Below are positions 35,937-36,856 of a stretch of DNA of 64,000 nucleotides, one piece after another (position 1 is the stretch's first letter; each line of letters opens with the position of its first letter). The position numbers were made by a program, and so were the translations under genes. A model generated the notes under the pieces. It saw nothing but the letters and a program-made list of their open reading frames with translations, was not told where the DNA came from and ran no database searches. The stretch is from the NCBI GenBank assembly GCA_002205965.3, contig NADL03000090.1:124001-188000 (forward strand), read 5' to 3'. This DNA is from Kappaphycus alvarezii (lineage: Eukaryota; Rhodophyta; Florideophyceae; Gigartinales; Solieriaceae).

Positions 35937-36651
35937 AAACCACCCCGTCCTCAAACTGCAATCCGGGTGCAGTATACAGTGAGCTCGATCAGCTCAAGTA
36001 AGAAGTCGGTCAACCCTTGCACCCCCCCAACCGCAACCGCGACACACTCATTTCCCTTTCTTGTCTGGCCCCTCACGGACATCTTCTTGACCAAAGCAGA
36101 CAACTGGTAAGCCTCGAACATCACACCAGAGTGTATTTTCTCCCGCGCACCGTCTTCGCCTCGAAGCTTAGCATTGATTAAGGTCAGACAAAGCCCTCAG
36201 GACTGACCCATCTGCTGAGCGTGTAGAGGTGAAGGAATACGGTGGTATAGTCATCCCAAAATCCCTCGCGGACCAGTAGGATGGCTCATACAAAACAAAC
36301 CGCTCGACGTTCAACCGACAGGAGAGCTCCGAGACTAGAGCTGGCCTGCAAGGCTGCAAGAAAAAGACCTTCTCAATTCCCTGCTATCACGCCGCAGCCT
36401 CGGAGTTATCTCAAGACTGCGGAATACTTTTCGTTGGACCAATTACGCCCTGGAACAAACAAGATTAGGCTTGTTCGTCTTACCGGCCGCCCATATGTCA
36501 TCAAGATTACTTGTTCTCGCAAAGTGAGTGACAATCTGGACAACCTCTTCTTCCGGCTCTCGTTTGGTGATTATGAGGAGGAGAAACCTGCTTCAGTAGA
36601 ACTGTCTTACTATGAAGCTACCCTTCTCTTTGGCCAGAATACGTTCAACAT
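35781..36651 (+). repeat. Left arm of an 870-bp inverted repeat
   Basis: Pairs with 37016-37880. It includes the outer part of an LTR (to 35936) and then flanking DNA with the H3-tail ORF. The arms are nearly identical at 35781-36020 and at 36160-36651, and clearly diverged with small indels in the 130 bp between. Confidence 0.9.
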
Positions 36652-36856
36652 CGCCGACTCTAGAGAACTGACGACCGGGATCGACAGAGAACTAGCATTG
36701 AGACTGAGCCTAACCGAATCTCTTCTCGATCGTGAAGACCATGCGGAGTACCCGGAATTTCCGGCTTGGACAATCTTTTCCACGGTTTGGAAAATACTAG
36801 AAGGTAAGCACGATTGCTTCATGGGGCACTTCTTTTCCGTAGACGTAGATACATAG
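36281..36856 (+). CDS. Histone H3 N-terminal-tail-like fusion protein (191 aa), longer copy
   Basis: After Met, residues 1-27 ([27 protein letters not shown]) align without gaps to the histone H3 tail: 19 of 27 identical, with K4, Q5, T6, R8, S10, T11, P16, R17, K23, R26 and K27 kept. K9 and K14 are Arg, K18 is Leu, R2 is His. After residue 28 all similarity ends: there is no alpha-N, L1 or alpha-2 histone-fold sequence. The remaining part ([50 protein letters not shown] and so on to VDVDT) is mixed alpha/beta-looking and not recognised. The ATG lies in both repeat arms. It may offer a decoy H3 tail to chromatin readers or writers, or may simply derive from an H3 gene 5' end fused by rearrangement. 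Expression is unknown. Confidence 0.62.
   Translation: [191 protein letters not shown]

Follow-up and report, generated by a model that had tools for sequence, protein, structure and literature searches.

An H3-like tail heads an antisense ORF in a Ty3/gypsy-like retrotransposon family of Kappaphycus alvarezii

An ORF of the red alga Kappaphycus alvarezii that opens with a histone H3 tail is a decayed fragment of an additional gene, carried in antisense orientation by a Ty3/gypsy-like family of retrotransposons. Judged from the alignment of its copies, the tail is old within this family and has been held there by purifying selection. The best reading, to which we give about an even chance, is that the gene encodes an accessory protein which would show an H3-tail decoy to the chromatin or import machinery of the host. 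Coordinates below refer to the window, that is, the whole stretch of 64,000 nucleotides analysed (contig NADL03000090.1, positions 124,001 to 188,000), and the gene is called the aORF.

Translation of the window ORF (36281-36856, + strand) gives 191 amino acids. Its first 27 residues after the Met align with canonical H3 without gaps and 19 of the 27 are identical (counted by eye). When compared with PDB chains using phmmer, the ORF matched 127 distinct sequences at E<=1 (best E 3.5e-5). The best 60 of these 127 are all histone H3, CENP-A/Cse4, chimaeras or H3 peptides, and their matches are confined to query residues 1-45. An H3-tail match was also obtained with the aORF of another copy, L020 (E 4.6e-6). 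No Pfam histone match was found in the window ORF or in a 428-aa frame of copy L010, and a PF00808 match of 0.17 in another piece is not significant. More generally, Pfam gave nothing significant for the window ORF, the top family, Transglut_N (E 0.055), falling short of the cut-off. The protein database gave 110 candidates for this ORF, none at E<=0.01, and Rfam gave nothing over the window at gathering scores. These results bear out two proposals of a sequence-only reading of this DNA, namely that the ORF opens with an H3 tail and that the histone fold is missing. A chance likeness to H3 is ruled out by the PDB matches together with the comparison with host H3 genes and the tail-profile matches in other copies, both described below. 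A histone gene with a broken fold is also ruled out, homology to the fold being absent. A GT..AG pair near 36805-36895 was considered as a possible intron and discarded, since relatives read straight through it.

The features related to the element in the window are the following:

19238..19390, - strand: further copy fragment, nearest clade B, with the leader and ~12 tail codons (open frame 19213-19335)
31297..31627, - strand: third LTR-derived segment, inverted relative to 35594-35937
31716..35593, - strand: decayed Ty3/gypsy-like gag-pol; its domains were recognised with Pfam in a relative, L019, rather than in the window copy itself
35594..35937, + strand: LTR-derived segment (~345 bp), with the gag side on its left and the aORF leader on its right
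36281..36856, + strand: 5' part of the aORF, codons 1-191, ending at an in-frame stop beyond which relatives continue
36281..36364, + strand: H3-tail-like segment, codons 1-28 (translation, PDB matches, copy alignment)
36857..37015, + strand: aORF homology downstream of the stop, reaching the palindrome junction at element ~+736, by comparison with copies
36973..37386, - strand: second, inverted 5' part of the aORF (tail 37303-37386), from the ORF list and self-alignment
37724..38064, - strand: inverted LTR-derived segment in the right palindrome arm

Read from left to right, the window carries an inverted LTR, a decayed pol-gag, an LTR, the aORF 5' part (+), the aORF 5' part again (-) and an inverted LTR, and positions 31846-34525 are colinear with element ~+2650 to +5270 of other copies. 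The two arms of the palindrome are 91.7% identical over 1,066 columns. The near-identical copy previously noticed in the opposite arm (36973-37386, -) does differ by a single amino acid in its first 121 codons; over the first 372 nt the two window copies show 5 differences, of which 2 are silent and 3 changing (codons 109, 122 and 124). A separate domain of ~160 residues behind the tail had been proposed as well and did not hold up. The window copy is a truncated fragment, since the frame of its relatives passes its stop, and the gene there has ~513 codons, a length assembled from separate open pieces of different copies. We also observed that 31297-38064 contains three LTR-derived segments of mixed orientation together with the palindrome, an arrangement which, from its layout, could have arisen by autointegration or template switching.

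Elsewhere in the window, four stretches (30004-30804, 44959-45542, 48324-49335 and 56440-56658) are mutually related and also resemble DNA near other copies. Two of their ORFs carry a GDH..C...RH pattern (by eye) and three ORFs tested had no Pfam match; these stretches are perhaps the end of another retroelement's protein. Two small proteins encoded at 39254-39865 (+) and 41158-41661 (-), related by eye, have signal-peptide-like starts and a common Cys spacing, and the one tested had no Pfam match. A gene of the sodium/calcium exchanger family is found at 5225-6418 (+) (PF01699, E 3.4e-19).

Copies of the ORF were searched in the window's own genome (336 Mb, 884 contigs). At least 152 stretches match the window ORF at E<=1e-3 in a six-frame search, a count based on 399 first-look candidates, 150 of them scored, in which one copy is in some cases represented by two stretches. 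Among the matches listed, at least 11 span residues 1-3 to 184-191 without a stop (own count). The loci retained for comparison comprise 20 of 10 kb, five of 2.5 kb and 20 short ones. Every copy was found through its likeness to the window ORF, and the counts thus cover aORF-bearing copies. At two sites (C660:368072-372661 and C609:1089390-1093878) an aORF match and a histone gene that by eye resembles CENP-A are ~4 kb apart; the two sites are perhaps one locus assembled twice.

The anatomy of the element could be established from the longer copies. Counted from the ATG, L009, L013 and similar copies are colinear from ~-640 to past +5,000. Among the four LTR pairs compared, a 320-bp repeat at -637..-319 returns at 6412..6730 with 95.9% identity (L009/L029) and the segment -634..-289 returns at 6401..6746 with 96.0% identity (L019/L032); the other two pairs (L010, L020) match in pieces. 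Target-site duplications were looked for by eye in two elements: L019 has TAGGG on both sides (5 bp) and L009 agrees at 4/5 positions. On the strand opposite the aORF of L019, Pfam recognised RVT_1 (1e-30) and RNaseH (1e-37), followed in the next open piece by H2C2 (3.6e-18) and rve (9.4e-10). Between the aORF and the right LTR, this opposite strand carries integrase, RNase H, RT and then gag, the latter with two CCHC knuckles and beginning at the LTR edge (by eye). The RT-RNaseH-integrase order is the one seen in Ty3/gypsy elements. An integrase chromodomain, the mark of their chromovirus branch, was sought in one copy, L010, whose C-terminal piece (131 aa) matched no Pfam family at E<=1. The aORF is antisense to gag-pol and located between pol and the 3' LTR. 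It occupies +1 to ~1539 in L009, where the LTR lies at -637..-319, and in L010 the pol frames start from ~1764 on the other strand; the aORF ends ~200 bp from the last open frames of pol, with which it does not overlap.

To follow the tail across copies, a profile was built from 15 of them and run on three frames of 28 others. It matched 25 of these 28 at independent E<=1 and 22 at E<1e-3, the matches often being split by frameshifts. The match was weak in L034, L039 and L040, of which L039 and L040 look nearly identical, and none was obtained on the three frames of L037, L043 and L051. Applied to the frames of the window, the profile detected both ORFs and the 19.2-kb fragment (5e-5), the next match being at 0.12. 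Twenty-eight in-frame rows could be aligned, with the tail at the position of the start codon; the ATG itself is altered in L017, L018, L027 and L045. These rows were chosen as readable in frame; a pattern resembling the tail served to pick eight of them, and their own tail strings another three. Because rows were chosen for their tail, the alignment is no independent count of it, and 25 out of 28 by profile is the fairer figure. The sequence-only reading had asked whether ATG and tail are out of frame elsewhere; in most copies the tail is present, either in frame or later split by frameshifts.

A tree of 27 rows resolves three supported clades, A (100/99, including the window), B (100/97) and C (100/97), of which L009 (clade A) and L021 and L019 (clade B) are example copies. 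Identity to H3 over 29 positions, Met included, reaches 23 in L019, is 20 in the window copy and is lowest, at 13, in L026 and L045. In 24 copies, each of the three clades has the H3 residue as its majority at A1, T3, Q5, T6, A7, S10, T11, G12, G13, R17, L20, K23, A24, A25, R26 and K27. The window copy has D12 and R13, versus Gly-Gly in most other copies, and K27 is replaced by Arg in L026, the most divergent copy. The remaining positions vary by clade. Position 2 (R2 in H3) is His in A and Lys in B and C; K4 is present in A and is Asn in B (Arg in one B/C copy) and in 2/3 of C; K9 is Arg in 9/10 of A and Lys in most of B and in 3/3 of C. At K14 most A and B copies have Arg and 2/3 of C have Lys, K18 is Leu in A, mostly Arg in B and Lys in C, and S28 is Arg in A and mostly Thr in B and C. 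Every modifiable lysine is replaced in at least one copy. Replacement of both K9 and K14 by Arg, which the sequence-only reading took as blocking modification there, is thus correct for the window copy but not as a general trait, K9 being the majority in clades B and C. Its list of kept and blocked residues thus describes a trait of clade A.

Selection was estimated as dN/dS (Nei-Gojobori) within clades, using 10 copies for A, 11 for B and 3 for C. Clade pairs omit L017, L018, L026 and WIN2, codons with gaps or stops were skipped and copies frameshifted in the tail were omitted; the values therefore come with the caveat that copies were selected for an in-frame tail. In clade A, we obtained 0.17 for the tail (bootstrap 0.09-0.28) and 0.25 for the body (0.20-0.31), and in clade C 0.28 (0.11-0.54) and 0.29 (0.19-0.43). 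In clade B tail and body show no difference, with 0.51 (bootstrap 0.29-1.07, an upper bound above 1) and 0.52 (0.42-0.66). These values probably understate past constraint because dead copies gather neutral changes. A dN/dS near 1, raised earlier as a possibility, was thus not observed for the tail, at 0.17 to 0.51 within clades, the window copy itself being broken. As a control, the other two forward frames were measured, with values of 1.17-2.43 (tail) and 0.95-1.42 (body). A lower range, 0.24-0.59, came from the antisense register with shared third positions, and we read this as a mirror effect because wobble positions are mirrored. An antisense-coding artefact was set aside, such low values being expected from mirrored wobble and the ORF list holding no minus-strand ORF of >=100 aa over 36281-36856. 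Seven clade-A copies allowed comparison with the polymerase: tail 0.26 and body 0.30 versus RT 0.51, so that the aORF is conserved like other proteins of the element. A comparison of two clade-B copies gave tail 0.20, RT 0.54 and body 0.74, the body being above RT, against the trend.

Between clades, synonymous differences in the tail are near saturation (pS 0.73-0.78) and pN is 0.25-0.34. Comparison of the aORF tails (clades A-C) with host H3 gave pS 0.74-0.88 and pN 0.23-0.28. Since synonymous sites are also near saturation against host H3, the shared sequence does not stem from a recent capture of H3. Three readable host H3 genes carry the canonical tail. Two of the five best host H3 loci, L057 and L058, show a frameshift within the tail; either they are pseudogenes, or they nearly duplicate L055 and L056 and owe the shift to an assembly error. 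It is hardly credible that the tail is a captured H3 exon fragment without function of its own: retrotransposons do take up host sequence (PMC7264820), but here the protein sequence has been retained despite synonymous saturation, and the frame-specific constraint in clade A is at least equal to that on RT. A single accidental fusion is ruled out by the age of the tail and its conservation among copies. This option of the sequence-only reading is therefore abandoned for a tail that is old, conserved and present in most other copies examined, whereas its proposal of a chromatin-targeting transposon protein agrees best with the LTR family, the purifying selection on the tail and the Arg/Lys-rich C-terminus, the targeting itself being putative. 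Nothing observed here speaks for a secreted mimic.

As reconstructed from the copies, the aORF protein starts with an H3 tail of ~28 residues. A region of ~270 aa comes next, then a domain in which Cys, His and Asp form a pattern, and at the C-terminus an end rich in Arg and Lys. The C-terminal half contains the blocks FRDFEGRC, QHAVCLD and ILIYDCAE. Where the relevant block is readable, among 20 loci and two database proteins, Cys is present in 15/17, His in 13/13 and Asp in 12/13, and the spacing in the two copies measured is C-116-H-15-D. The aORF body has no significant Pfam family and no PDB profile match. Its relatives in the protein database are three unnamed fragments, P0002, P0003 and P0004 (8000 candidates were scored in the search that gave P0002 and P0003). 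We take these three residues, by their order and spacing, to resemble the Cys-His-Asp/Asn triad of papain-fold enzymes. The aORF would be like the cysteine peptidases of clan CA in these two respects and differs from them in having no profile-level match. The H3 tail might then recruit chromatin proteins which the papain-like domain cleaves or deubiquitinates. This is in line with the conservation of the three residues and the spacing in two copies. Neither Pfam nor PDB gave a significant match, so that the fold is guessed from the way the motifs are ordered and spaced, and we regard this activity as unlikely. Equally doubtful is its extension to an antisense-encoded anti-silencing protein, in which H3-tail bait and protease-like domain would together catch and disable chromatin regulators of the host, the tail residues differing from clade to clade under competition between host and element.

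The decoy reading supposes the following steps. The protein would be produced from the antisense strand and then enter the nucleus. As a rule, the initiator Met is removed before an N-terminal Ala, so that the mature protein may start as H3 does; with loss of this Met, an H3-like N-terminus would therefore be exposed. For host readers, modifiers or importers of H3 tails, this N-terminus could be a decoy or a docking peptide. The likeliest benefit to the element would be that host silencing is blunted, or that the pre-integration complex is tied to chromatin. Chromatin targeting by the aORF protein is, in this respect, putative.

The H3 tail serves as an import signal, and the tail of the aORF may simply be a peptide for nuclear import or nucleic-acid binding in which histone marks play no part. 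The element would have borrowed it as a cargo of importins and histone chaperones, and the accessory protein, perhaps together with the pre-integration complex, would thereby reach the nucleus. Several mark-bearing lysines indeed vary, often to Arg, and the C-terminus is likewise rich in Arg and Lys. However, this basic C-terminal stretch already supplies an import signal, and the non-basic residues T3, Q5, T6, S10, T11, G12, G13, L20 and A24 are also the majority in three clades; conserved non-basic H3 residues therefore exceed what a generic basic import signal needs. We consider import as the sole role possible but on the unlikely side. Another proposal is that the host methylates the tail like that of H3 and that heterochromatin proteins bind it, limiting the element or steering its integration. 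Most clade B and C copies have Lys at 9 and 27, as this self-restraint or targeting would call for, but in clade A position 9 is Arg in 9/10 copies and we find the proposal very unlikely.

Coming back to an H3-tail decoy, the mark-bearing residues kept as the majority in all three clades are T3, T6, S10, T11, R17, K23, R26 and K27. They are spread along the whole tail, and K4, K9, K14 and K18 are not the majority in all clades. Given the residues kept, readers of K4 or K9 are less likely partners than importins or proteins that act on the K23-K27 part, such as PRC2. Conservation of K23, R26 and K27 would fit PRC2 targeting, and nuclear import too. In the red alga C. merolae, H3K27me3 is reported over 50% of repetitive elements (PMC5405695), and EZHIP is an example of an H3-like peptide able to inhibit PRC2, through a mechanism resembling that of H3 K27M (PMC6513997). 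On the strength of these two analogies, H3K27me3 is a plausible target.

Antisense ORFs between pol and the 3' LTR, the aORF-3R class, are known in plants and fungi, with no established function according to the available parts of PMC7264820 and PMC11963269. The same parts give as examples maize Grande GENE23, rice RIRE2, Silene Retand, Phaseolus PvRetro13 and Botrytis Boty, and GENE23 of Grande, of this antisense-ORF class, is a nuclear protein (PMC7264820). The aORF described here is like them in position, antisense orientation and conservation. They differ from it in having Transposase-28, SMC or other domains, or none, and an H3 tail is not mentioned in the available parts of these two sources; the words 'histone', 'chromatin', 'protease' and 'peptidase' are absent from the main text of PMC11963269. 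Among histone mimics, EZHIP is likewise a non-histone protein with a short stretch resembling H3 (PMC6513997). EZHIP is however a protein of mammalian hosts, whereas the aORF encodes a retrotransposon protein that begins, right at its N-terminus, with ~28 residues of tail, and whose binding is putative. Histone H3 and CENP-A have the tail sequence in common with the aORF, which has no histone-fold match and an unrelated remainder. In the open-access literature we found no described retrotransposon protein with an H3 tail. The class of antisense accessory ORFs is thus known, and what would be new here, surprising and open to test, is the H3 tail.

A conserved H3 tail on an antisense ORF offers a direct and testable link between the element and the chromatin of its host. 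It would also add a retrotransposon to the cases of histone mimicry. If the aORF protein blocks silencing, this would be one route by which such elements spread.
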